Below, one piece after another: positions 16,053 to 30,890 of a stretch of 64,000 bases of DNA. The stretch is from Natrialba swarupiae (lineage in GTDB: Archaea; Halobacteriota; Halobacteria; Halobacteriales; Natrialbaceae), in NCBI RefSeq assembly GCF_008245225.1, contig NZ_VTAW01000003.1:124001-188000 (forward strand). Direction: 5' to 3'. Numbering within the stretch: position 1 is the first letter of the stretch; each line of letters begins with the position of its first letter. Both the position numbers and the translations under genes were made by a program. Below the pieces are notes generated by a model that worked only from the letters and a program-made list of their open reading frames with translations, was not told where the DNA came from and searched no databases.

Positions 16053-17825
16053 TCACTTCTCTTCGACGTGGCGAATCTCGCAGGCGATGCCGCGCGTGCT
16101 CCCGGCCATCTCCCGGCCGAACATCTCCGCGCGGCCGACGCCGAAGGCCTTCGGCCCCTCGACGACGACCTCGTCTCCCACTCGAATGTCCTCGTCGGCG
16201 TCGACGACCCCCGGCGCGAGCACGCTCCCGTGGGGGACGAAGCCGTCGATCTCGACCCGCCGCACCGGGGCGTCGGTTTCGACCCACCGCTTTGCGCCCT
16301 CGAGCGTAAAGGAGAGCGTGCCGTACTGGGGCACCATCGTCGCCAGTTGGGTGTCCTCGCGGTCCCGCACCTGAATCTTCGGATACCGGCTGGTCGTCTG
16401 GATGTCGTCGAACAACTCGTCGCCCGCGCCGTCGCCGAGCAGGTAGTCCGCGATGGCCCGGACGGTGTTGTGCTCGCGCTCTCGTTTGGAGTACTTGAGT
16501 TCACCCGACAGCGCCTCCGCGAGATTCGAAAGCGACTCCTCGTCCGTCGGATGGCCGCCCCGCGGGACAGTGTAGGTGATATCGAGGTCCTCGCCCTCCC
16601 ACCCGTCTTCGACGCGTTCGACGATGTCGCGGTAGCCCTCGTCGGGAACGTGGGCAACCACGTACGGGTAGGTGTCGGCGTTTCGCTCGAGGTACCGGCG
16701 AAGCACCTTCGCGACGAACTCCTTTTCGTCCGCGGACCACCGGCCCGTCACCACGGTGTCGTAGTGCTGGGCCGGGTAGGTCGTCTCGAGTTCCTGGGGA
16801 ACGACGCCGATCGGACTGGTCATCGAGACGAGGTGGCCACGCCACTGGATCGCGTCGTGGAACTGGCGGTGGCTCTGTGACTCGCTGTAGGGTTTCGCGG
16901 CGGAACAGGGGGCCAACACGAGCGGGTTCGCAAAGCGGTTGCGATAGCGCGAGGTGACGCGATCGGCGTAGCGCTGGATCTCCACCCGCCGGAGGGTGTC
17001 CTCGCTCGCCGCCGAGATCTGGGCGTCCCGGAGGATCGGGGTACGCTCCTCGAGATAGCCCCACTGCGAGTCGAGTTCGCGCATCGCGGCCGTGAGCCAC
17101 TGGTCGTGGCGGGCCTGCCCTTCGAGGTAGTCCCGCAGTCGGCCGTCGCGAATCCGCCGGCGGACGATCCCCAGTTCGGCCTCGAGCGCGTTGACGTTGT
17201 GCTCGGCACAGTCCTCGCGGGTGAACTCCTCGCGCGGTTTCTGGCACGCGGGACACGAACAGGGCAGTTCCTCCAAGTCCTCTAAGAAGTACGCCTCGTC
17301 GGTCGTCAGATACCGCCCCTGGGTTCCCTTCACGACGGCGGCAGTCTCGTCGAACAGATCGACGCCGGCGTAGGCGAGCAGAGCCACGTTCCGTGGCGTC
17401 GCGACGCCCGAAAAGAGGAGGGCGGTGTCGGCCGGGATCGCCTCCCGGACGGAGACGACGGCCTCGACGAGCGCCGCGCCGTGGCCGGTGATCGACTGGA
17501 CGTCCGAGACGGCGTAGGCGTCGGTTCCGTGATCCGCTGCACCCTCACTCGAGATCACTGCGACGCTCGGATAGCCGACGTCGGGATACTCGACGGCGAA
17601 CGACTCCTGGACCTCCTCGGCGGTGCCGCCGGGGAACGACCGGTGGGGCAACACGGTAAGCGTCGAGTCGTCGCCCTCGGGTACCTCGCGATCCGCGCTC
17701 CACAGCGATCCCGCGTCTTCTACGACGTCGTCGACGAGGGCAGGCGTCGTCCGCGGCGACTCGAGGCGAAGTTCGCCCACGCGCGCGGCCCCGTCGCGCT
17801 CGTGGACCTCGAAGTAATCGGTCAT
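16053..17825 (-). CDS. arcS: Archaeosine synthase (ArcS, TgtA2)
   Basis: 590 residues. ArcS converts the preQ0 base placed at tRNA position 15 by TgtA toward archaeosine. Seen in order: a degenerate TGT-like N-terminal barrel lacking the catalytic aspartates; zinc cysteines in LPCSCPACQKPREEF (C189, C191, C194) and C206; the ArcS-specific motif PCSAAKPYSESQSH (306-319) with Lys311; and a C-terminal PUA domain from about 510 (VRRVEIDGFVPHGSVLAPGV, ending CEIRHVEEK). The full-length architecture is normal. TgtA itself is 1.7 kb away at 19541, so both steps of G15 modification are encoded here. Confidence 0.95.
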   Translation of the reverse strand: MTDYFEVHERDGAARVGELRLESPRTTPALVDDVVEDAGSLWSADREVPEGDDSTLTVLPHRSFPGGTAEEVQESFAVEYPDVGYPSVAVISSEGAADHGTDAYAVSDVQSITGHGAALVEAVVSVREAIPADTALLFSGVATPRNVALLAYAGVDLFDETAAVVKGTQGRYLTTDEAYFLEDLEELPCSCPACQKPREEFTREDCAEHNVNALEAELGIVRRRIRDGRLRDYLEGQARHDQWLTAAMRELDSQWGYLEERTPILRDAQISAASEDTLRRVEIQRYADRVTSRYRNRFANPLVLAPCSAAKPYSESQSHRQFHDAIQWRGHLVSMTSPIGVVPQELETTYPAQHYDTVVTGRWSADEKEFVAKVLRRYLERNADTYPYVVAHVPDEGYRDIVERVEDGWEGEDLDITYTVPRGGHPTDEESLSNLAEALSGELKYSKREREHNTVRAIADYLLGDGAGDELFDDIQTTSRYPKIQVRDREDTQLATMVPQYGTLSFTLEGAKRWVETDAPVRRVEIDGFVPHGSVLAPGVVDADEDIRVGDEVVVEGPKAFGVGRAEMFGREMAGSTRGIACEIRHVEEK

Positions 17826-19540: not shown

Positions 19541-21022
19541 TCACTCGTCACCGGCGTCGAAATCGATCCGGTCTACGCGTTCGGGAACCGACTCGAGGAC
19601 GTCCTCGGGCCACCCGCGGTGGCCGAGCGTGAACTCGGTCTCCGGGTTCGCCTCGACGAGTCGCCGGATCCCGTCGGCGGCGGCCCGAAGCGCCGACCGG
19701 TCCGTTCGATCGGGCACCTCCGCCGTCAGCGGGTAGCTCTTCGAGAGCGCCCGCGGGAACGGCCCGAACGGCGGTTCGACGCGCCAGGAGTCGTCGAACT
19801 CGTCGCCGCGGGCTGGACCGCCCTCGGTCAGAAACACCGAGTCCGGGACGGAGAGGCGCTCGAGTCGGCGATGGTGGCGCACCACTTCGGGTCGGCGGGC
19901 GCTCTCGTGGGAGACGTAGAAAAACGAGCCCTTCGAGACGGGGTCGGACCGCTCGAGTTGGTCGGCGTGGTCGAGCAGCGTCCGGTAGCCGTCGAGCATC
20001 GTCGGGTGGGCGCGAGCGCGCTCCTCGACGAGTTCCAGTAGGTTTCCGGCACGGATCGCCTGCTTGATCCGGCGAATCTCCGCGAAGGTGACGTGGAGGT
20101 TGTGGGCGGCGAGTTCCTCCTCGCGGCGCTCGTCGTCGAGCGCCCGGAGTTCCGCCGGCGAGTACTCCGTACAGACGGGACACGAACAGGGGAGATAGTC
20201 CAGATCCTCGAGGTGGTGGGTGCCGCTGACGGTCAGGTACCGATCGTCGCGGGCGTACAGCGCGTACGCCGCGGAGTCGAACAGGTCACAGCCCATGGCG
20301 ACGCCCAGCGCGAACATCATGGGGTGGCCGGCACCGAAGAGGTGGACTGGCGCGTCGGACCCCAGCCCTCGTTTTGCGCCCGCAACCACGTCGACCACGT
20401 CGTCGTAGCGGTAGTCGTTCATCAGCGGGACCACCGCCCCGACGGGGAAGACGTCGAGATTCGTCGCGTCGGCGTGGCGACCCGCCGCCTCGCGGAGGTC
20501 GGGATACGTCGATCCCTGGACCGGCGCGTTGACCAGCATCTCGCCGGTGTCGACCGTCTCTGCGACCTCGAGACGTTCCTGTGTGGTCTCGAGTTCGCTC
20601 TCGGCGCGCTCGCGAGGGACGTCAGGCGGCGTCGGGATGTCGACCGGCGTTCCGATGTCGGAGCCGATCTCGTACTGGAACTCGAGGATCTCCTCGGTGG
20701 TGACGTCGATCTCGCCGTACTCTGCAAGCTGAAAGGAACCGGAGTCGGTCATGATCGCGCCGGGAAAGTCGAGCAGCTCGTGGAGGCCGTCGGCGAGTGC
20801 GCGCTCGCGGACGTCGTCGGTGCCGTAGACGATGTAGGAGTTCGTGATGAGGATCTCGGCACCGAACTCCTCGGCGAGCCGGCGGGGACTGATCGTGTCC
20901 AGGTTCGGGTTGATCACCGGGAGCAGTGCGGGCGTCTCGACGGTGACGTCGGCTCGTGGTACGGCGAGCCGACCGATTCGACCGCCTGCGTCGGTATCCC
21001 GGATTTCGAAGCACTCGCGCAT
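19541..21022 (-). CDS. tgtA: tRNA-guanine(15) transglycosylase
   Basis: 493 residues. It exchanges guanine-15 of archaeal tRNAs for preQ0. Visible: the catalytic aspartate segment [13 protein letters not shown] (D93), the second region [43 protein letters not shown], and the zinc-site cysteines in YLPCSCPVC followed by the downstream LAAHNLHV histidine. The C-terminal 150 residues correspond to the archaeal C1/C2 region; a PUA domain is not obvious at the end (a shorter form with the PUA in ArcS is normal for haloarchaea). Start [19 protein letters not shown] is standard. Confidence 0.95.
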
Positions 21023-21344
21023 CGGTCGTCAGTTGGTGTGTCCGACGTAAGTCAGTGAAGGTTTCCGATCGAGTCGTCCGGAGCCCGTCGCTCGTCACGC
21101 ACGTTCGGATAGCGGTGTAAGGAGAGCGTTCACCGATAACGGGATACGTCGTGGGGAACGCAAGCACAAGGGATACGACCGTTTGTCCAGTCCGATACGT
21201 CTCGGTCTCGAGAGGGTTCGATATACCTGAACGTGGAAACCGGGATTACGAATCGACACTCGGTATCAAATACCGCTTTTCTTCGGAATAATCTCGCAAC
21301 AGTCGAGATGTTTTAGCCCGAAATGAGCTGTAGACCGGAGCGCA
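21023..21344. other. Intergenic region upstream of the acidic repeat protein
   Basis: 322 bases between divergent genes with no coding sequence I can support. It is lower in GC near the right end. A gatgttttagcc box at about 21307-21318 lies 27-38 bases before the ATG at 21345 and is the likely promoter of the acidic protein. Confidence 0.5.
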
Positions 21345-22736
21345 ATGGCTTCACGAACGCACGCAATCGGTGTGGTGTTCGTCGCCCTACTGGTCGCACT
21401 TGCGGGGGGTCCTGCCCTCGCCGGTGCGACGGCTGGCGCGAGCGACACCGGAGACACGAGCGCGACACTCGAGAACGTACAGGTCGGCGAACTCGACCTC
21501 GACGACGTCACCGTCGAGAACGCGACGATCGAGGAACTGAACGCCGATACCTTGGAGTTCGATTCCGAGGAACTCGAGGAGGAACTGGCAGAGAACGACG
21601 ACATCGAGGCTGATGCGGACGACGAAACCGCGGATCAGCAAGACGATGCGAACGACGAGAACGGCGCTGACGACCTCGAGCAGGCAGAGGACGTGACGAT
21701 CTCCGACATGGAGATCGACCAGCTCGAACTCGAGAACGTCTCGTTCACTGACCTCGACCTCGAGGAAGACGAGATAGACGACGTCGACGAGAACGACAAC
21801 GACGCCGACGAGGAGAACGGTGTCGAGAACGAAGACGACGGAGTTGACGACAACGGCGTCGACGACGATGATAACGGCGTCGATGACGAGAACGACGTTG
21901 ACGAGGACGACAACGGAGTCGGCGACGAAACCAACGGTCAGGACCTCATCGACGAGGACGCTGACGAACTCGTCGTCCAGGACCTCACTATCGAAGAGAT
22001 GAACACCGAGAACCTGGTCATCGACGACCTGACGGTCGAGGGTGAAGGTGTCCTCGATCGGATCACCGGCTGGTTCGAGGGGCTGTTTGACGGTGACGAG
22101 GACGACGAGAACGACCAGGGCGACGCTGCGGCTGACGAGAACGACCAGGACGACGCTGCAGTTGACGAGGACGACCAGCAAAACGACGAGAACGGCATCG
22201 ACGACGAGAACGACGGCGTCGTCGACGACGAAGACGAGAACGACGAGGCGACCACGCAGGAGATCGACGATCTCACCATCGAGCAGTTCGACATCGACGA
22301 CGTCTCGGTCGACACGATGACCATCGACACCCTCCAGGAAGCGGACGATGACGAGGTCGACGAGAACGATGTCGACGACGAAGCCGACGACGAAGATAAC
22401 GATGCCATGACGAACGACAACGGCGTCGACGACGAAGACAACGGCGTTGACGATAACGACGCCGACGACGAAGATAACGGCGTTGACGACAACGACGCCG
22501 ACGACGAGGACGACACGACGACCGAAACCGTCACACAGGCCTCCGCAACGTCGATGTCGATCGACGACATGAACGCAGACACCGTGACTATCGGTGACAT
22601 GCAGGAGTTAGAGGAGGTTACTGACGATGTCGAGGAAGACGACAACGATGTCGACGATAACGACGTTACTGACGACGACAACGACGTCACTGACGACGAC
22701 AACGACGAACAACAGTCGATCGCCATCCTGAACTGA
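21345..22736 (+). CDS. Exported hyperacidic repeat protein, lysine- and cysteine-free
   Basis: 463 residues. A Sec-type signal (MASRTHAIGVVFVALLVALA, cleavage probably near the AGATAGA segment at 26-32) precedes a protein made mostly of Asp, Glu, Asn and Val. I find no Lys and no Cys, and only two Arg. Five blocks of regular short repeats of the type x-L-T/D-I-x-x occur at about 43-72, 116-142, 208-236, 306-336 and 403-427 (for example DLTIEEMNTENLVIDDLTVE), resembling a pentapeptide/beta-solenoid rhythm. They are separated by D/N/E linkers such as NGVDDNDADDEDNGVDDNDA. It is not assigned to a family. A surface, ion-binding or matrix role is plausible but unproven. Confidence 0.8.
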   Translation: MASRTHAIGVVFVALLVALAGGPALAGATAGASDTGDTSATLENVQVGELDLDDVTVENATIEELNADTLEFDSEELEEELAENDDIEADADDETADQQDDANDENGADDLEQAEDVTISDMEIDQLELENVSFTDLDLEEDEIDDVDENDNDADEENGVENEDDGVDDNGVDDDDNGVDDENDVDEDDNGVGDETNGQDLIDEDADELVVQDLTIEEMNTENLVIDDLTVEGEGVLDRITGWFEGLFDGDEDDENDQGDAAADENDQDDAAVDEDDQQNDENGIDDENDGVVDDEDENDEATTQEIDDLTIEQFDIDDVSVDTMTIDTLQEADDDEVDENDVDDEADDEDNDAMTNDNGVDDEDNGVDDNDADDEDNGVDDNDADDEDDTTTETVTQASATSMSIDDMNADTVTIGDMQELEEVTDDVEEDDNDVDDNDVTDDDNDVTDDDNDEQQSIAILN

Positions 22737-22948: not shown

Positions 22949-23497
22949 TCACTCGGTGGACAGACGATAGTAGGAGACCGCGAGAACCGTCCGACCGTCG
23001 CGGATATTGCCCTCGAGGAGGGAGCCGAGGAGTTCGTCGAACGGAATCGCAGTAACCCGAATACTCTCGTCGTCGTCGAGTTGCTGTTCGGCCGTCGGAC
23101 GACAGCCGTGGGCGACGAACACGTGTAAAACGGCGTCGGCGATTCCGTTCGCCGGTTCGACAGTGACCAGCGACTCGAGCCGATCGGCCTCGTAGCCCGT
23201 CTCCTCGGCGAGTTCGCGACGAGCTGCTTCCTCGAGATCGTCGTCGCCGGGTTCGGTGCCGCCGGCGGGGAGTCCGCGGTTGACTCGGTCGACGGCCTGT
23301 CGCCACTCTTCGATACAGACGACGTCGCCGTCGGGGGTAAACGGGAGCACGCAGACGCTCGGCGGTTCGGAGAGATAGTCGAACTCGGTCTCGGTCCCGT
23401 CGGGAAGCTGAACGGATTCGTTAACGATATCGAAGCCAGGACAACTGTACGCTACCCGGCTCTCGAGGGTCTCCCAGGCGAGCGGATCTGCCGTCAT
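22949..23497 (-). CDS. Nudix hydrolase, ADP-ribose pyrophosphatase-like
   Basis: 182 residues. The Nudix box GTEPGDDDLEEAARRELAEE followed by TGY fits GX5EX7REUXEEXGU. The preceding beta-strand segment (VCVLPFTPDGDVVCIEEWRQ with AVDRVNRGLPAGG) is characteristic of ADP-ribose/NUDT5-type enzymes, which hydrolyse ADP-ribose or related sugar nucleotides. ATG 23497 is preceded by a CTTTTGAG box about 27 bases upstream; longer in-frame starts would extend over the PadR promoter. Substrate assignment is by resemblance. Confidence 0.88.
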   Translation of the reverse strand: MTADPLAWETLESRVAYSCPGFDIVNESVQLPDGTETEFDYLSEPPSVCVLPFTPDGDVVCIEEWRQAVDRVNRGLPAGGTEPGDDDLEEAARRELAEETGYEADRLESLVTVEPANGIADAVLHVFVAHGCRPTAEQQLDDDESIRVTAIPFDELLGSLLEGNIRDGRTVLAVSYYRLSTE

Positions 23498-23683
23498 AGG
23501 AGTCCGTACGCTGATGATCCTCAAAAGCGTCCCGTCACGTGGGCGGGTCGGAAACGCACCAGCTACCGGTAGGGAATGCGCCGGTGTACGATTCTCCGGC
23601 ACTCGTTTCGGACACGGTCGGTGGTGTACCTGCTCTATAACAAAACCACAGATCGGTGAACGTCGGTATTCAGAGGACGATCC

Positions 23684-23959
23684 ATGGATCAACTAACTGG
23701 ATTTCAGCGCGACTTGCTGTACGTGATCGCAGGAAAAGACCGGCCGTCTGGACAGGAAATCCTCGACGACATCAACCGGTATATCGACCAACCGGTCACA
23801 CATGGTCGGCTGTATCCGAACCTCGACACCCTCGTCGAGAAAGAACTCGTCGAGAAGGGGCAACTGGACCGGCGGACGAACTACTACGCGTTGACGCCGA
23901 AAGGTCAACGGGTCTTACAGCGCCGACAGGAGTGGGTCGATCAATACGTCGACGTCTAA
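23684..23959 (+). CDS. PadR-family winged-helix regulator
   Basis: 91 residues: MDQLTGFQRDLLYVIAGKDR, then helix-turn-helix with VTHGRLYPNLDTLVEKELVE and the wing GQLDRRTNYYALTPKGQRVL, the standard PadR-like fold in haloarchaea. No C-terminal dimerisation helix beyond RRQEWVDQYVDV, so it is a minimal form. Target genes unknown; it is divergent from the Nudix gene and immediately precedes the integrated element. Confidence 0.92.
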   Translation: MDQLTGFQRDLLYVIAGKDRPSGQEILDDINRYIDQPVTHGRLYPNLDTLVEKELVEKGQLDRRTNYYALTPKGQRVLQRRQEWVDQYVDV

Positions 23960-24122
23960 CACCCTCCCGTATCGACTGTCACTCCTTCCCACGTGATAGA
24001 ACTACGTCGTGTACACCGACACACGAGCGAGTATCGTGCTCTCTCGAGGGTTTCTTGCTGGTTCTCATGGCAGCCCGGATGCCACGCCAAACCTCCCGGT
24101 CCGAGCGTGGGTTCACGAGAAG

Positions 24123-24136
24123 AGCCTAGGCCGGGA
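24123..24136. other. attL: 14-bp copy of the tRNA-Thr 3' end
   Basis: agcctaggccggga, identical to 30819-30832. The match stops at base 24137 (c here, t in the tRNA) and at 24122 (g versus a), so the repeat is exactly 14 bp. Confidence 0.85.
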
Positions 24137-24187
24137 CATAGACGAAAGGTTCAATGTCTCCCTTATTAAAGATACCTCAATCAAAAA

Positions 24188-25432
24188 ATGCCGGACATCC
24201 GAAAACAGATCACGAACTTGCACGAAAGGATCCAGGAATCTAATGACATCAGTGAGAGAGATAAGGAACTCCTCATCGCATTCAGCGACGAGATTGACCT
24301 CCTCAAATCCAAATATTCTGACCATCGTCACAACAAACTCCTCCGCCACTGCACCATCATGGCCGAAGAAGGCGGGGAACTCGCCGCGGCACTCGAGGAC
24401 GAGGACGCCGCAAAGGAGATCCTTCGCTGGATCAACCGGACGTACGACAACGAGTACACAAATCACGACTACCGAACGGCGCTTCGCGTCTTTGGCAAAC
24501 GTGTTACCGAGGGCGGGGACTACCCCGCGAGTATCGAGTGGATACCATCCGGAACCTCGAGCAGTCACGATCCCGTTCCCGACCCAGCAGACATGCTCGA
24601 GTGGGAGGAAGATATTCTGCCGATGGTCGATGCAACGAGAAACTCTCGCGACGCAGCGCTCATTACCGTCGCGTTCGACGCGGGACCTCGAGCGGACGAA
24701 CTTCGGAACCTTTCGGTCGGCGACGTGACCGATGGCGAACACGGACTCCGAATCTGGGTCGATGGGAAGACCGGACAGCGCTCGGTTGACCTTATCCCCT
24801 GTGTACCGTATCTCAAGCGGTGGCTCAGTGATCATCCCGCACCAGACGATAGCACTGCACCGCTCTGGTCGAAGTTGAACACAGCTGATGAGATCAGCTA
24901 TCGGCAGTTCCTGAACTGTTTCAAAGACGCCGCTGATCGAGCAGGTGTTACCAAATCGGTCACACCGACTAACTTCAGAAAGTCCAACGCGACCTTCCTC
25001 GCACGGAATGAAGTGAATCAAGCGTTCATCGAGGATCGCCAGGGACGAAAGCGTGGGAGTGACGCGACCGCCCACTACGTTGCTCGCTTCGGGACTGACA
25101 CCGAAGCCGATTACGCTCGGCTCCACGGTCTCGAAGTCGAAGAGGAGGAGCCCGAGCCGATCGGGCCGGTCGAGTGCCCTCGGTGTGAAAAGGAGACACC
25201 GCGACATCGGGAAACGTGCGTCTGGTGCAATCAACCACTCGAGTACGGCGCGATCGAATCGATCGAAGACGATCAGAAAGAGGTCCGGGACCAAGTCTTC
25301 CGGCTCGCGCAGGAAAATCCGGAGTTCCTCGAGGACATCCAGCAAGCGAGAAAATTCTCCGATATCGTCGACGACAATCCCGATATCCTCGAAGACGCAC
25401 AGGCGTTCGCAGAGTCCCTCTCGGACGAGTAG
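24188..25432 (+). CDS. int: Tyrosine recombinase / integrase of the element
   Basis: 414 residues. An N-terminal helical SAM-like DNA-binding region (about 1-135) is followed by the catalytic domain. Arg168 lies in FDAGPRADELRNLSVGDV, Lys194 in VDGKTGQR, Arg264 in TPTNFRKSNATFLARN, and His296-Tyr297 in SDATAHYVARF, where Tyr297 is the likely nucleophile. The box II histidine (usual HxxR) is a threonine (Thr261), a variation I have seen in haloarchaeal integrases. A C-terminal zinc ribbon (C330-x2-C333...C344-x2-C347) and acidic tail follow. The promoter ccttattaaagata lies about 20 bases upstream. It would catalyse integration and excision at the tRNA-Thr site. Confidence 0.93.
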   Translation: MPDIRKQITNLHERIQESNDISERDKELLIAFSDEIDLLKSKYSDHRHNKLLRHCTIMAEEGGELAAALEDEDAAKEILRWINRTYDNEYTNHDYRTALRVFGKRVTEGGDYPASIEWIPSGTSSSHDPVPDPADMLEWEEDILPMVDATRNSRDAALITVAFDAGPRADELRNLSVGDVTDGEHGLRIWVDGKTGQRSVDLIPCVPYLKRWLSDHPAPDDSTAPLWSKLNTADEISYRQFLNCFKDAADRAGVTKSVTPTNFRKSNATFLARNEVNQAFIEDRQGRKRGSDATAHYVARFGTDTEADYARLHGLEVEEEEPEPIGPVECPRCEKETPRHRETCVWCNQPLEYGAIESIEDDQKEVRDQVFRLAQENPEFLEDIQQARKFSDIVDDNPDILEDAQAFAESLSDE

Positions 25433-25437
25433 CGCCA

Positions 25438-25632
25438 TTACTTGAGGTTCCGTCGTATCCGATCGAGTTCTGCTTGAATCTTGTCGATATCCTCAGCTGA
25501 GGCACCGTTCGAGAGGAGGGCCAGAGCATACGCTCGTGCCTCTGTGTCACCGTAAGCGAGAACCCGAGACAGGAACTCGGTGTTTCGGTCCGCATAGCGG
25601 CTCACTTCAGTGATCGGTTCCTGGCTACTCAT
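25438..25632 (-). CDS. Small helical protein of the mobile element
   Basis: 64 residues (MSSQEPITEVSRYADRNTEF start, IQAELDRIRRNLK end), predominantly helical. The pattern ARAYALALLSNGASAEDIDK is typical of small unknown proteins next to integrases in haloarchaeal elements. It converges on the integrase with a 5-base gap, so the two transcripts would overlap and antisense control of integrase expression is possible (inference). It might be an excisionase-like accessory factor, but no helix-turn-helix is evident. Confidence 0.6.
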   Translation of the reverse strand: MSSQEPITEVSRYADRNTEFLSRVLAYGDTEARAYALALLSNGASAEDIDKIQAELDRIRRNLK

Positions 25633-25929
25633 TGCTCTCCCTCCGTCTGAGCAGTCGATTTGCGTGCGATGCGTTCGCTAGAGCGGATGCTGGTCGTATC
25701 TGTGGACATATTCTTGAGTTTGTCGTGCTGCCGGTTACGGTATCAAGTGTTTCTCGGCTCTGTGAGTGGTCTACTGGTCGTCAATGCGGGGGCCAGCAAA
25801 CGTGGGTTTCCTTCAAGAGCCGATGCGTGTTTCACACTCAGCACGAGGGTCCTTGAGTTAATATAGATTAGTGAAGCCAGATAATTGCGAAACCAAAAAA
25901 TAGTTTGCGACAGTCGGATAGCAGGTAGT
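25633..25929. other. Non-coding stretch in the element
   Basis: About 300 bases with no supportable gene. The right part is AT-rich (gagttaatatagattag and ccaaaaaatagtttgcg), giving a promoter for the gene at 25930, with the aaaaaatag box about 30 bases upstream of its ATG. No iteron-like repeats seen. Confidence 0.5.
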
Positions 25930-26496
25930 ATGGAACCTTCAGATGACGTTGTCACCCAAATCCGCGATTCATGGGAAACGGAAAACGACGCGTTTGGACG
26001 AGTTTACGAAGCGATTTTGGGAATTTCTGAATTCACGAGACACAGTGATATTGCTGAGGTCGCCAGATGCGCCCCTAATACCGCAAAGAAGCATTTGAAA
26101 CGCCTGAATCAGATGGGGATCGCCGAATGTCGAAGTTCACATTGGTCTCTCATGTTCCGTCGGGACGATGCGTATCTGGAATGGCGAGAGGTAAACCAGA
26201 TTGCGGACGATCATTCGGTCCAAGAGATCGCTGAGCGGGTTCGTGAACTAGAAGAGAAGGAAACCGAGCTCAAAGAAGAGTTCGGTGCTGAAGGGCCAGA
26301 TACCGCCTCAATATACTCATCAAACAGTGACCGGCCAACACACGAACTGATGCAGGCGATCGGTACATGGAACGGTATTCAGCGCGATATCCGCCTCTAC
26401 GAGGCAGCGCGTCAACTCCAACAGAACGACGGTCGTCTGATATCGCCGTTCGTTGAGACCCACACCAACGACCAAACGTCGTCTGAGTCGAAATGA
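25930..26496 (+). CDS. Winged-helix regulator (DUF7342-like, ArsR-like)
   Basis: 188 residues from ATG at 25930. RDSWETENDAFGRVYEAILG, then SDIAEVARCAPNTAKKHLKR as helix-turn-helix and the wing SSHWSLMFRRDDAYLEW, match a haloarchaeal winged-helix family I recall as DUF7342. A helical/coiled-coil part (IAERVRELEEKETELKEEFG) follows. It overlaps the next gene by 4 bases (ATGA), so the two are translationally coupled, a common arrangement in regulator-effector or antitoxin-toxin pairs. ATG 25930 fits the promoter better than an earlier in-frame codon. Confidence 0.75.
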   Translation: MEPSDDVVTQIRDSWETENDAFGRVYEAILGISEFTRHSDIAEVARCAPNTAKKHLKRLNQMGIAECRSSHWSLMFRRDDAYLEWREVNQIADDHSVQEIAERVRELEEKETELKEEFGAEGPDTASIYSSNSDRPTHELMQAIGTWNGIQRDIRLYEAARQLQQNDGRLISPFVETHTNDQTSSESK

Positions 26497-26957
26497 CTAC
26501 CACGAACCACGTCCCGACGATCAAGCGATGGGACACCAACCCGGATAGGGAATCCTTGCGGGTGATTCACCGTTTTCTGAGTCGTCGCGAGGCGATCGAG
26601 AACGCCAGCCTCGAGCCATGCAGGACTCACCCGCATCTGGTACGCGCAACGGTTAGTGATCAGGTTTCGTCAACAGCACCTGGCATTCTCGAGGCTCGAT
26701 GGTACGAGACAAGTGATTTCGTCATCACGTATCAGACGGACCGTGAGAACGGTGGCTCCCCACTCCTTCGGTGGACACATCCTCCTGACGCAGATAATAT
26801 CAAGGTATCACGCAGTGGGTCAGACGACGTGCAAACGTTGACGCCCCCATCTCATCATCCTGCCTGGAATCGGTTTCACCCTCTCCGGGTTCTGTCCCAC
26901 GTGCTTGCTACCATCGAGGAATTTAGTGTCAGCAGTTTCCATCACGAAAGCCGCTAA
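26493..26957 (+). CDS. Unknown protein coupled to the winged-helix regulator; possible toxin/effector
   Basis: 154 residues, no membrane segment. The layout (SLRVIHRFLSRREAIENASL, central ARWYETSDFVITYQT, LLRWTHPPDAD, C-terminal helix HPLRVLSHVLATIEEF) resembles small haloarchaeal proteins that always follow a DUF7342-like gene, and loosely the TumE/DUF6516 toxin group with its R-W...D/N-P-H pattern. This resemblance is from memory and weak. It starts inside the stop of the regulator (ATGA overlap). It is followed by 113 AT-rich bases and the promoter of the next module. Confidence 0.6.
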   Translation: MTTTNHVPTIKRWDTNPDRESLRVIHRFLSRREAIENASLEPCRTHPHLVRATVSDQVSSTAPGILEARWYETSDFVITYQTDRENGGSPLLRWTHPPDADNIKVSRSGSDDVQTLTPPSHHPAWNRFHPLRVLSHVLATIEEFSVSSFHHESR

Positions 26958-27070
26958 CTATTGAATAGATGCGCTATCAGTAACATTCGAATTTTAACCT
27001 ATTGGATCCTAACCATATAATCTCAAATCACGAAAGGGTTTTATAAATTGTTTGCGTAATATGAGACCAC

Positions 27071-28021
27071 ATGGTAGAAAAGAGTCACTTTCGTCTATTA
27101 TCACATCTTGTAGTGGGGAGTGGTTCAGAAGTGGGTATCAGTACGCTTGCTGATCAACTCGACTGGAGCGCTGGTCACACCTCACGTATTGTCTCCGAAT
27201 TAGAAGCCTACGGCTACGTCCAAACCAAGCAAAGCGGTCGGCAAAAGTTGGTTTCTCCGACGGATATCGAACCAATCCAGCAACTCGAGGGACTTCTCAC
27301 GGAGTATAGCCACATGAATCTGCCCGATCTCGTTGCTGGCGCTGGGTTACTCGTGCTCTATTATCTCGATCGAGGACGGACCGCAACCGAGTTGGCCGAA
27401 CTAAGTGGTGTTAGTCAGGCAACGATATACCGCCGGTTAGATGACTTTCAGCGCGTTGGTGTCGTTGGGAAATCGAAGTCCCAGTATCGTCTCAACGATC
27501 CGTTTGCAGTGCTGGCCCCGATCGCTCGAGGACTGCTCCACCAGAAACATCGTCGCGAAGCAGAGCGACACGCGAATGGACTCAACTTTATCTGGGAAAC
27601 ACACGACGAATTCCTCTTCGCCTGCGACAGTGACGTTACTGCCGACGGGTTTTACCTAACCGGGCCTGCCCTGTTCGAAGCGTTCGATGTTCCGCTTCTC
27701 ACCAGAGATCGACGACACTACTTCCGGACGGACCGACTCTCCAAGATTACTCCCGCAGAATTAGTCTGTCACACTCTGCTGATCGATGACGGTCCCCGCT
27801 ACCGAACGTACTGTCTCTTATTGATGGAACGGCAGGACATCGAGCGAACGGTATTGCGGGAACGTGCTGAACACTATCTCCCCGAAGCGACGACCGACCT
27901 GCGCGCGATCGTCGATGAACTCCTCGAATTCTTAGAAACAGACGGAACGACAACAACTGAGCAGCTGCCCGAATGGGAAGACTTCAAACAAACGGCCAGA
28001 GACTATGAGATCACTGTATGA
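27071..28021 (+). CDS. Double winged-helix regulator, candidate antitoxin of an AbiE-like pair
   Basis: 316 residues. The first winged helix is at about 5-70 (STLADQLDWSAGHTSRIVSE), the second at about 88-150 (TATELAELSGVSQATIYRRL), and the C-terminal 160 residues form an unrecognised domain with FLFACDSDVTADGFYLTGPA and YFRTDRLSKITPAELVCHTL. The start is supported by a gttttataaa box 25-33 bases upstream. It overlaps the downstream nucleotidyltransferase by 4 bases (ATGA). In type IV AbiE systems the first gene (AbiEi) is a winged-helix autorepressor-antitoxin and the second a nucleotidyltransferase; the order and coupling here are the same, though sequence similarity to AbiEi is not obvious. 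Confidence 0.8.
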   Translation: MVEKSHFRLLSHLVVGSGSEVGISTLADQLDWSAGHTSRIVSELEAYGYVQTKQSGRQKLVSPTDIEPIQQLEGLLTEYSHMNLPDLVAGAGLLVLYYLDRGRTATELAELSGVSQATIYRRLDDFQRVGVVGKSKSQYRLNDPFAVLAPIARGLLHQKHRREAERHANGLNFIWETHDEFLFACDSDVTADGFYLTGPALFEAFDVPLLTRDRRHYFRTDRLSKITPAELVCHTLLIDDGPRYRTYCLLLMERQDIERTVLRERAEHYLPEATTDLRAIVDELLEFLETDGTTTTEQLPEWEDFKQTARDYEITV

Positions 28022-28863
28022 GCTCTCGTGAACGATTCGGTCGTAATTATATCGAGGCCGAGCTCCGGGAAATCGCAGATCACCTCCAGACGGATGTTGA
28101 TGCCTATCTCATCGGCGGTGGCGCAATGTCACTTCACGAGCCGTCTCTCAAGGACACGACCAAAGATATCGATCTTGTCGTTGTGGATGAGGCCGCCCTT
28201 CGCCGGCTAATGGGAGTACTCAATGACCTCGGCTACGAGGAAGTTACCGATCTCGGTAAGGAGTACGATCGATTAGGAGCGCGTCACTGCGTTCGAAACG
28301 ATGCCGGTTGTCAGTTCGACGTCTTCTATCGACAGATTGCCGATAAGCTGTATTTCAGCGACGGAATGCAAGCGCGGAGTGAGGCGTTTCTTTCGGACGA
28401 GTCCTTCTCAGTCGGGCTCGTTTCGTTCGAGGACATCTTCCTCTTCAAGGCCGTCGCAGAGCGTCCGGACGATATCGGAGACATGGCGACACTCGTCCAG
28501 ACAGATCTCGACTTCGATGTGATCGAAGACGAGATCGAACGCCAGGTCGACCTTCTGGGAGGAGAGCAATTTGTCACAGTGGTCTCCGAATCGCTTGAAC
28601 GGCTCGATCAGAACGAAGGTATCCAAACACCCCTTGACGATGTTGTCCGGGAGTACTACCAACGGTACATGAACGGGTACGAACTCCGGTTACAGTTAGA
28701 CGAGGACACCGCAAAATCCGTCAGCGAACTCGCGTCGACGTTAGACGTTTCAGAAGAAGAGATCGAACGTCGATACGAGTATCTCGAGCAGTACGGGTTC
28801 GTCGAACGGACCGGTGAAGGCATACGAGATACCGGGAAACGCGACGCATTTCAGCGGTCCTGA
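28018..28863 (+). CDS. Nucleotidyltransferase (DUF6036-like), candidate toxin
   Basis: 281 residues. The N-terminal domain is a DNA polymerase beta-type nucleotidyltransferase: AYLIGGGAMSLHEP (GGGAMS, 33-38), then KDIDLVVVDE with Asp50 and Asp52 and the third carboxylate Asp101 in QFDVFYRQIADK. The full metal-binding triad is intact, so it should be active. SFEDIFLFKAVAERPDD is typical of DUF6036/AbiEii-like enzymes. A C-terminal segment (SVSELASTLDVSEEEIERRY) looks like another helix-turn-helix, which is unusual. Related enzymes transfer nucleotides to tRNA or proteins. Translationally coupled to the regulator upstream; converges on the next gene. Confidence 0.85.
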   Translation: MSSRERFGRNYIEAELREIADHLQTDVDAYLIGGGAMSLHEPSLKDTTKDIDLVVVDEAALRRLMGVLNDLGYEEVTDLGKEYDRLGARHCVRNDAGCQFDVFYRQIADKLYFSDGMQARSEAFLSDESFSVGLVSFEDIFLFKAVAERPDDIGDMATLVQTDLDFDVIEDEIERQVDLLGGEQFVTVVSESLERLDQNEGIQTPLDDVVREYYQRYMNGYELRLQLDEDTAKSVSELASTLDVSEEEIERRYEYLEQYGFVERTGEGIRDTGKRDAFQRS

Positions 28864-28872
28864 TAGCTCGTC

Positions 28873-29454
28873 CTACTTTTCCAGCGAGTCGCCGAATTCT
28901 TTCTGGAACCCTTCGAGAAGCCGTCCGAAGCCGGATTGGAGGAAAAACTCGGCGTCCTCTTTCGCCTCGAGGAGGTGCTTTCGGCGTTTATCCGAGTACT
29001 CCGTCGCCATCTCGTCCAATTCGACGGCGAACGCCTCGATCGTCTCCTCGTCCTCGAGGGAATCGTAGGTTCTGAACACATCTTTCAGCCCGCGCTTGGC
29101 CGATTGCCTGACACGACCGTCCTCGTCGGTCAGTGCCTCCAGCAGGAATCCACCGATTTCGTCCGTTTGTTGGCGAACGGTGTCCACATCTGCCTCGATC
29201 GATCGATCGCTCTCGGCGACGGCGAACACCAGTGCGATCCCCGGCGTCAGTCGTTCTGCAACCCGGACGGTCGACTGTCGGACGTATCCGTCATCGCTCT
29301 GGGCGTAGATGGAGCTCAACTCGTCAAAGCAGGTCTCGAACAATCGAACTCGTTCCTCGAGATCTAACTCCTCAATTTCGTCGATCGTCTCGGTAACCTG
29401 CTCGGAATCACCTGATCGAATGTCAGCCGCAAATCCGTCCCACCGTTGTTCCAT
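28873..29454 (-). CDS. Helical-repeat (HEAT-like) protein of the element
   Basis: 193 residues, all-helical and acidic. Segments such as YVRQSTVRVAERLTPGIALV and DGRVRQSAKRGLKDVFRTYD have the V-R-x-S/A-A-x-x-L rhythm of HEAT repeats (about three units). No catalytic motif, signal or membrane helix. It converges on the nucleotidyltransferase with a 9-base gap. Possible roles are protein scaffolding or inhibition; none can be shown. Confidence 0.7.
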   Translation of the reverse strand: MEQRWDGFAADIRSGDSEQVTETIDEIEELDLEERVRLFETCFDELSSIYAQSDDGYVRQSTVRVAERLTPGIALVFAVAESDRSIEADVDTVRQQTDEIGGFLLEALTDEDGRVRQSAKRGLKDVFRTYDSLEDEETIEAFAVELDEMATEYSDKRRKHLLEAKEDAEFFLQSGFGRLLEGFQKEFGDSLEK

Positions 29455-29623
29455 ATCGATCTATTGGGCCACCTAGTCCATAATACTCGCCGTGTTGAAG
29501 GCACGATGAAATGACGACAGGAGGGACGTGATTTCGAGGATGTCGACAGCCTCGACGGCCACAACGATGAACGGTCTGGATACATCCCGTACGGTTTTGC
29601 GTTCCGACCACTTCTCATCTACT

Positions 29624-30592
29624 ATGCCGTTTAGTGTGAGTTGGCACACGCTTCTCGACGAACTCGATGATCTCCCGGATGGAGCGACGCTCGTCACGCC
29701 CCTATCGCACAATCGGTTCCGGATCAGTGACGTACAGGAGCAACGTGTCATCATCAGCTTCGAGGACAAAGACGAACAGCGACCACTCCAGCGCGATCAG
29801 TTCGAGACGCTGTACCGGCGCATCACCGATGCACCGAACGGGTTTCAGCTCGATCGGCTCCCGCCCGATGCCGATCCCTACCCGGCGGTGTGGAGCCTCC
29901 ATCCTCGATTCGAGATCGACGAGGATGCTGGCGTGATCGTCGAGACCGATGGGCCGACAGCGACACAGCTGCTCGAGGCCGAAACCGAGCCGGAGACCGA
30001 AGACCGGACGGAGCCCGATCTCGATGTGTACGCCGACGCGCTCCTGCTGGTTGATGCGCTCGAACGCCACGACGTAACCACGCTGGAGGAGATGGAAACG
30101 GAGGCGCTGGTCAATCTGTACACCCTACTCTCGGACGTGCAGCGCAACGCCAACAGTTTCCGTCAGGATGTCGCCGACGTGCTCCTCAATCGTCTCCATC
30201 ACGATCGACCCATCAACGGTTCGTTCGGCTCTGTCCAGCGGACGACTCGGCGAAATCGTACGCTCAGGGACGACGAGGAAGTGCTTGCGGCGCTCGAGGA
30301 CGCTGGAATCGATTCCGAGCGCGTCATGGGTGTGGACCGCGACAAGGTTGACGACGCGCTCGAGGTGACAGAGCTGGCCGAGAGCGACGTCTACGAAGTC
30401 AACGAAAGCGAGTACGTTCGAAAGGCCGAGGTAGACGAGGAGGTCAAAGAGACGCGGCTACAAGGTCTCAAAGACCAACTCGCAGCGACAGAAGGCGAAG
30501 AAGCCCAGGAGCTACGCCAAGAGATCGAGGACCTGGAGGACCGCATCGACGAGCTCACGAGTTTCCGGACGGGAGCGGAGGTACACGAGTGA
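29624..30592 (+). CDS. Unknown element protein with N-terminal beta domain and C-terminal coiled coil
   Basis: 322 residues from ATG at 29624, with a ggttttgcg box about 27 bases upstream. The N-terminal 85 residues (ATLVTPLSHNRFRISDVQEQ, RVIISFEDKDEQRPLQRDQF, ETLYRRI) look like a small beta-rich domain. The middle is helical (VDALERHDVTTLEEMETEAL). The C-terminus has INGSFGSVQRTTRRNRTLRD and a strong coiled coil (EEAQELRQEIEDLEDRIDEL). I recall similar C-terminal parts in haloviral and plasmid proteins but cannot name a family. Single gene between the helical-repeat gene and the tRNA; last gene of the element. Confidence 0.7.
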   Translation: MPFSVSWHTLLDELDDLPDGATLVTPLSHNRFRISDVQEQRVIISFEDKDEQRPLQRDQFETLYRRITDAPNGFQLDRLPPDADPYPAVWSLHPRFEIDEDAGVIVETDGPTATQLLEAETEPETEDRTEPDLDVYADALLLVDALERHDVTTLEEMETEALVNLYTLLSDVQRNANSFRQDVADVLLNRLHHDRPINGSFGSVQRTTRRNRTLRDDEEVLAALEDAGIDSERVMGVDRDKVDDALEVTELAESDVYEVNESEYVRKAEVDEEVKETRLQGLKDQLAATEGEEAQELRQEIEDLEDRIDELTSFRTGAEVHE

Positions 30593-30818: not shown

Positions 30819-30832
30819 AGCCTAGGCCGGGA
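30819..30832. other. attR: 14-bp repeat within the tRNA-Thr 3' end
   Basis: agcctaggccggga covers the 3' strand of the acceptor stem, the 3' half of the T stem and one base beyond the tRNA; identical to 24123-24136. Confidence 0.85.
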
Positions 30833-30890
30833 TTTGAACCCGGGCTCTCGTCCTTACCAAGGACGCGCTTTACCGCTAAGCTACCCAGGC
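30820..30890 (-). tRNA. tRNA-Thr (anticodon GGT)
   Basis: 71-nt minus-strand cloverleaf: acceptor GCCTGGG/CCTAGGC (with one G-U pair), D arm GCTT-AGCGGTA-AAGC, anticodon arm CGTCC-TTGGTAA-GGACG with anticodon GGT, 5-nt variable loop AGAGC, and T arm CCGGG-TTCAAAT-CCCGG. No intron and no encoded CCA, as usual in haloarchaea. The gene is intact after integration because the element carries the 3' end of the tRNA; its 3' end forms attR. Confidence 0.96.

Follow-up and report, generated by a model that had tools for sequence, protein, structure and literature searches.

Sequence comparison places the 463-aa acidic protein encoded at 21345..22736 (plus strand, open reading frame with an ATG start) in a widespread haloarchaeal family that is unnamed in the libraries searched; coordinates here and below are those of the window, the whole 64,000-nucleotide stretch of DNA that was analysed. 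Our preferred reading, to which we give an even chance, is that these proteins are secreted, unanchored, mucin-like (bottlebrush) polyelectrolytes. The chain would leave the cell by the Sec route, five blocks of five-residue repeats (pentads), of about 25 residues each, would build a small beta scaffold as stacked layers of one beta-solenoid, and the linkers would loop outward as disordered, hydrophilic bristles, retaining water and counter-ions and maintaining a coat or matrix in solution in brine. The bristles would be polycarboxylate in the lineage of the window protein, and elsewhere furnished with N-glycan acceptor sites or rich in Thr. From the sequences we infer the export, fold, stacking, bristle geometry, glycosylation and coat function of the family, together with the surface location of the 463-aa protein. 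The comparison itself establishes the sequence architecture, the conserved blocks, the turnover of the linkers and their differing chemistry on the same blocks, the nearly gene-specific promoter motif and the conserved locus. A design of fixed pentad blocks and free hydrophilic linkers of variable chemistry is more in keeping with a bottlebrush than with a protein made for specific binding.

Acidity is a general trait of haloarchaeal proteins. From residue 36 onward, the 463-aa protein contains no Lys, Cys or His, a single Arg, 128 Asp, 65 Glu and 38 Asn, with a net charge of -192 and an Asp plus Glu (D+E) fraction of 193/428 (0.45). Taken over the whole protein, D+E reaches 0.42, against a median of 0.192 for 41 heuristically chosen open reading frames of the window, among which it is the only one free of Lys (1.6% of all their residues). 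These counts agree with the earlier note, made from the sequence alone, which had described a hyperacidic exported protein with neither Lys nor Cys and only one further Arg after its signal. The Sec-type signal peptide proposed there (residues 1-28, 21345..21428, plus strand, in a protein that opens with MASRTHAIGVVFVALLVALAGGPALAGA, with a putative cleavage site) is likewise supported by an n-region, a hydrophobic core and a PALAGA segment judged by eye, and by conservation through the family (mean pair identity 0.73 in 37 homologues), and the 463-aa protein is probably exported by this route. The C-terminal QQSIAILN (22710..22733, plus strand) is of a family type, S-[IVL]-[AGVIS] plus one to four residues, that ends 21 of the 37 complete homologues, and neither a C-terminal sorting signal nor a transmembrane segment was seen by eye in family proteins. 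After residue 35, Cys is absent and Lys occurs only twice in total among 39 homologues, which, with no anchor in view, speaks for an unanchored bottlebrush. The rule is not absolute, since a 687-aa paralogue on the minus strand of locus L076, outside the set of 39, has some Cys and Lys, which weakens the case; its linker is rich in His and Asp (DDHDDHDD-type), and transition-metal binding by this paralogue is possible.

The five blocks lie on the plus strand at 21465..21560 (block 1, residues 41-72, up to seven pentads), 21687..21770 (block 2, residues 115-142), 21942..22043 (block 3, residues 200-233), 22251..22340 (block 4, residues 303-332) and 22521..22616 (block 5, residues 393-424). They follow the rule [LVMAI]-T/E/S-[IVL]-[ED]-x in a strict five-residue rhythm. 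Over all blocks, position 1 is mainly L (0.37), V (0.23), M (0.13) or A (0.11), with I also occurring; position 2 is T (0.42) or E (0.18), with S also occurring; position 3 is I (0.35), V (0.29) or L (0.14); position 4 is E or D, and position 5 mostly D, E, T, S, N or Q. For each of the five blocks, none of 5000 shuffles reaches the observed spectral power at periods 5 and 2.5; the regular blocks of the earlier note therefore stand, and a period of five alone suffices where a five-to-six-residue rhythm had been described. The blocks are also related across homologues, and not unrelated acidic sequence: mean pair identity among 37 homologues is 0.73 for block 1 and 0.51-0.61 for blocks 2-5, against 0.22-0.34 for the linkers and the tail. 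This conservation of signal and blocks, set against the loss of linker sequence, is a principal argument for the bottlebrush reading. An amphipathic helix after block 3 (residues 237-248 of the model, the LDRITGWFEGLF region, 22053..22088, plus strand) is supported by homologues and model, a related form of the motif being present in 29 of the 39 homologues, and a short helix is predicted with low confidence by AlphaFold2 after block 1 (residues 74-89, 21564..21611, plus strand). Internal duplication of the blocks was considered and dropped: beyond the pentad pattern no likeness between blocks could be detected, block-to-block identity not being clearly above that of pentad-preserving shuffles (lowest of ten fractions 0.10), and a common origin is unsupported.

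Structure prediction gives the blocks a beta character. In the AlphaFold2 model of a 352-aa paralogue with short linkers (20 sequences), five beta stretches of 23-29 residues each are seen, with ten-residue mean pLDDT of about 64-81 in the blocks, linkers below 50 and a pTM of 0.42. For the 463-aa protein, the model assigns beta structure to the whole of blocks 3-5 and to part of block 2 (ten-residue mean pLDDT 60-84, pTM 0.33), and block 1 is strandless at a pLDDT of 37-51. The five solenoid-like blocks of the earlier note are upheld as real and conserved, and the AlphaFold2 confidence in their beta structure is moderate. Since the linkers carry no strands, any pairing of strands must occur inside a block or from one block to another; judged from the models, the most likely arrangement is the stacking of the blocks into one beta-solenoid. 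Beta blocks joined by low-pLDDT linkers favour the bottlebrush reading, and the moderate confidence, the strandless block 1, the known solenoid bias of the method and the lack of a structural match weaken it. Foldseek searches with both models against the PDB, and with one against viral models as well, returned no usable match, and neither did a second look by VIA-align. The bias is a serious caveat: AlphaFold2 is reported to yield unrealistic beta-solenoids for perfect or near-perfect repeats, mucin 22 included (PMC11795689), although the blocks of the 463-aa protein are diverged, unlike the repeats of that work.

The linkers evolve in a different manner. Their lengths have medians of 25-53 residues and differ several-fold among the 37 homologues, and in the 463-aa protein they consist of D/E/N repeats. 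Three acidic linkers were delimited on the plus strand: linker 2 (residues 143-199, 21771..21941), hypervariable, with a mean pair identity of 0.27 and pLDDT below 50, and, by repeat and conservation analysis, linker 3 (residues 250-302, 22092..22250) and linker 4 (residues 333-392, 22341..22520). Within linker 4, two adjacent 36-bp copies of a NGVDDNDADDED-type unit (about 22427..22498, plus strand) are identical at 34 of 36 bases, and TRF reports 2.7 copies with 88% matches at 22414-22511. With neighbouring units differing at only two of 36 bases, the recent expansion at the DNA level that had been suspected at 22429-22509 is real. The NG[VL]DD unit is found in 12 of the 39 homologues, and the NGVDD-type unit is, on this comparison, lineage-specific.

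Linker chemistry was surveyed, with N-x-S/T sequons compared with shuffles, in 20 proteins from 14 named loci of Natrarchaeobius, Natrinema, Halopiger, Haloterrigena, Natronorubrum, Natronoglomus, Natronobiforma and Halobiforma. All 12 proteins from Natrinema, Halopiger, Haloterrigena and Halobiforma show a sequon excess (z 5.0-16.6, 7 to 53 sequons, with 22-53 in the seven Natrinema and Haloterrigena proteins) and a D+E of 0.27-0.44. The eight from Natrarchaeobius, Natronorubrum, Natronoglomus and Natronobiforma have a D+E of 0.47-0.54; seven of them have z-scores between -0.6 and 2.2, and the eighth, from Natronoglomus, has 4.5. Natrinema, Halopiger, Haloterrigena and Halobiforma inhabit neutral brines, and Natronorubrum and Natronoglomus are alkaliphiles. 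Two further genomes from the genus of the window (G038 and G040) encode family proteins identical to those of L044 and L031, from Natrarchaeobius chitinivorans AArcht4T and AArcht7, which makes Natrarchaeobius very probably the window's genus. Natrarchaeobius comprises chitin-degrading soda-lake archaea with pH optima of about 8 to 9.5, and AArcht7 is the type strain of N. oligotrophus (PMC12343721). The sequon-rich state (z at least 4), present in 17 of the 37 homologues, requires at least five changes on a tree of the block columns alone (37 rows, for the most part weakly supported, with 8 of its 34 inner branches starred), against a mean of 12.4 and a minimum of 9 for shuffled labels. The trait largely tracks the tree, and the correlation with habitat is therefore confounded with descent. 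Among distant relatives from other families, L068 combines pentad-like stretches with 85 sequons, and L073 combines them with Thr-rich ETTTAAAEETTT-type linkers. Two further proteins, L072 and L077, have Thr-rich stretches and DUF7282 domains (E 1.9e-63 and 6.1e-60) besides pentad-like stretches, and their kinship to the family is tentative, the profile matches being weak (E 7.8e-7 and 2.6e-9). The same blocks thus appear to accept interchangeable linkers, acidic, rich in N-glycan acceptor sites or Thr-rich, with glycosylation as a prediction, and such a change of chemistry under constant blocks again suggests a bottlebrush.

Of the 125 genomes in the same GTDB family, 100 have relatives (E <= 1e-3), spread over 26 of its 29 genera and often with several matches per genome, a retention that supports the bottlebrush reading; the 25 genomes without a match at this threshold, one of them from the same genus, detract from it. 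A profile of the signal and block 1 matches 136 of 391 genomes and 42 of 86 genera of the class, the matches outside the GTDB family being much weaker (best E 5.6e-16). No match was obtained for the 463-aa protein in Pfam and NCBIfam up to E 10, for the family profile among PDB sequences up to E 1, or in a protein search of a plasmid collection. Among the matches listed from the open-licence literature, none names such a family or describes a secreted haloarchaeal pentapeptide-repeat protein, although absence from print is not claimed.

The genes of the family share a promoter motif. In the window it reads AACAGTC-N5-GTTTTAGCC (21298..21318, plus strand) and, as defined by family conservation, comprises a TATA-like TTTTAG and an upstream AACAGTC box. 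An AACRGTC-N5-STTTAG-like motif, with small variants, precedes 38 of the 39 family genes, the last being one base off, and within 60 nt upstream AACAGTC occurs in 37 and GTTTTAG in 36 of the 39. When 61 genomes of the same family were scanned with AACAGTC-N4-CGTTTTAGCC, allowing up to one mismatch, 52 matches were found in 40 genomes, 50 of them beginning 46-47 nt before a family gene match, and 21 genomes had no match; the same pattern read backwards gave a single match. The 21-bp motif is almost exclusive to family genes, and it was found in 25 of the 29 genera, two copies being present in seven of the 14 named loci and one in the other seven. A near-leaderless start is predicted at this motif. 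In the genome of origin (4.2 Mb, 99 contigs), the one exact match belongs to the gene of the 463-aa protein, and the frames downstream of the only one-mismatch match contain no family gene. Elsewhere, a one-mismatch motif (L081, G005 C3:35903) lies directly before an ABC-transporter ATPase-like gene, phosphonate-type by eye, and another motif (L089, G016 C1:2367760) lies upstream of a PadR-like gene with no family gene in the printed frames, the family gene matches of that genome being elsewhere on the same contig. A regulon was discarded as a candidate, given that the scans of the own genome and of the 61 genomes gave almost only family genes, and the motif hence offers no regulon from which function could be deduced. 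A sigma-70 promoter scan was set aside as inapplicable to archaea.

The same-family loci examined hold one or two tandem family genes between tgtA and NUDIX/PadR genes. The neighbours in the window, identified as conserved by locus comparison, are a minus-strand gene upstream (19541..21022) that we take to be tgtA (archaeosine tRNA-guanine transglycosylase) and, downstream, a presumed NUDIX hydrolase gene (22949..23692, minus strand) and a presumably PadR-like gene for a 91-aa HTH protein (23684..23959, plus strand). A tgtA or NUDIX gene lies near the family gene in all 44 of loci L001-L044 (genomes overlap and flank lengths differ), and none of the three neighbours occurs in 12 loci from other families for which 4-7 kb were fetched. 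A functional link to these neighbours was accordingly rejected, and the arrangement is read as shared history. Near tgtA and on the same strand lies a second TGT-domain-like gene (16053-17825), ArcS-like by eye, with a relative in seven of the 14 named loci. A gene for a Tat-type secreted protein, DUF4397-like by eye, is found close 3' of the locus in seven of the 14 (L031, L033, L035, L039, L040, L041 and L044), and the copy read has long acidic stretches. Just past the PadR-like gene begins a stretch of low GC (24000-30000, 0.52-0.56 against about 0.65), with a tyrosine-recombinase-like gene by eye (24188-25432, plus strand) and a tRNA-Thr (30819-30890, minus strand), and it is probably an integrated element.

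The same evidence may be set against other accounts of the family. The proteins could be secreted pentapeptide-repeat-like binding scaffolds or S-layer-associated adhesins, with the blocks as the active part and the linkers as mere halophilic spacers, an account we consider rather unlikely. It draws on the fact that the conserved parts are the blocks, the amphipathic helix after block 3 and the C-terminal SIA-type end, and on weak matches to PF13599 (Pentapeptide_4) in 5 of 37 members (best E 0.0046) and in one distant relative (E 0.00025, 21.5 bits against a cut-off of 38), the latter with a weak Ig-like C-terminal match (Transglut_C, E 0.04, below cut-off); DUF7282 in the two other distant relatives points the same way. 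Every pentapeptide match falls below the curated cut-off, however, and such matches mean little alone because unrelated aspartyl-protease models score almost as well (4 of 37 members, best E 0.01). Runs of at least three pentads in the 463-aa protein number 7, 5, 4 and 4, block 3 being broken under the strict rule, and a run of eight is reached in one of the 39 homologues (L029); membership of the pentapeptide repeat family was dropped on run length and on the Pfam gathering cut-off. Furthermore, the linkers hold their hydrophilic composition despite the loss of sequence, which counts against this account. We attach only a very small probability to the view that the protein is of low complexity, evolves rapidly and has no role of its own: the linkers do turn over by repeat expansion and 25 of the 125 same-family genomes lack a match, but the blocks are conserved in 26 and the promoter motif is found in 25 of the 29 genera, and the locus is conserved.

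A cation reservoir or an inhibitor of carbonate scale is also improbable; here the Asp/Glu linkers of soda-lake forms would bind scarce Mg2+ and Ca2+ or stop CaCO3 from crusting on cells, in the manner of acidic shell matrix proteins. The large negative charge and the clean separation in D+E between the eight proteins of presumed soda-lake genera and the 12 others speak for it, as does the alkaliphily of the window's genus (PMC12343721). Against it, relatives from other genera carry the same blocks with many sequons and a lower number of carboxylates, the grouping by habitat is partly presumed and cannot be separated from phylogeny, and the 463-aa protein itself falls between the two groups. 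A calcium loop in the NGVDD unit was rejected on the restriction of the unit to a minority of homologues, and no calcium-binding family (TSP3, EF-hand, RTX) was matched in Pfam by the 463-aa protein (E up to 10) or by the homologues (E up to 1); the lineage-specific unit and the missing match together make a specific Ca2+ loop unlikely. The cation-binding surface polymer conceived in the earlier note hence survives in its general sense, as an exceptional polyanion, and not as a specific Ca2+ binder. Unspecific cation binding and a biomineral role of the acid forms are possible, and the sequon-rich or Thr-rich linkers of relatives make hydrophilicity and volume look the more general properties.

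Under the bottlebrush reading, the family illustrates a design rule, fixed pentad blocks with interchangeable bristles, in proteins that are probably secreted. We regard as unlikely, in its full extent, an elaboration in which one scaffold under a near gene-specific promoter has its bristles switched repeatedly between polycarboxylate and dense N-glycan by brine chemistry, with the soda-lake forms adapted to brine rich in carbonate and poor in Mg/Ca, where they would buffer ions or inhibit scale, and with the blocks as a new interrupted pentad beta-solenoid. If acid and glycan linkers do substitute for each other by habitat, the family would provide a natural experiment on the adaptation of a surface polymer to alkaline and neutral brines. 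Its sequence diversity also makes it a case on which beta-solenoid prediction can be tested.

Comparison with known systems situates the family. The matrix proteins of shell biominerals are acidic and rich in Asp, and resemble the 463-aa protein in a very high Asp/Glu content within a chain that is probably disordered and, for the 463-aa protein, probably secreted; they differ in that five-block relatives have sequon-rich linkers, and the comparison is one of composition, with no homology claimed. Pentapeptide repeat proteins (PF00805, PF13599) share the five-residue rhythm, two hydrophobic positions per pentad and a beta prediction. Their consensus is given as (A/C/S/V/T/L/I)(D/N/S/K/E/I/R)(L/F)xx, and a 24-residue insertion between pentapeptide-repeat coils in Rfr23 provides a precedent for interruption (PMC8145042). 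Their fold is a right-handed quadrilateral beta-helix; the models of the five-block proteins show predicted beta blocks and, in Foldseek, no usable match. Pentapeptide repeat proteins contain eight or more contiguous pentads, however, against 4-7 per run in the 463-aa protein, which also departs from them in its long linkers, in I/V (64%) in place of L/F at position 3 and in a preference for L/V/M over A at position 1. In function, the nearest known counterpart in idea is Hmu1, the halomucin of Haloquadratum walsbyi, a haloarchaeal protein with a signal sequence, as is predicted for the 463-aa protein too. Halomucin is thought to form a negatively charged, glycosylated, water-rich coat (PMC1544339). 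The two are compared by description only, and they differ in size (9159 against 463 aa) and in the five pentad blocks of the 463-aa protein, but the mucin-like trait, long regions that are acidic or rich in sequons or Thr, with predicted glycosylation, is present in the five-block family.
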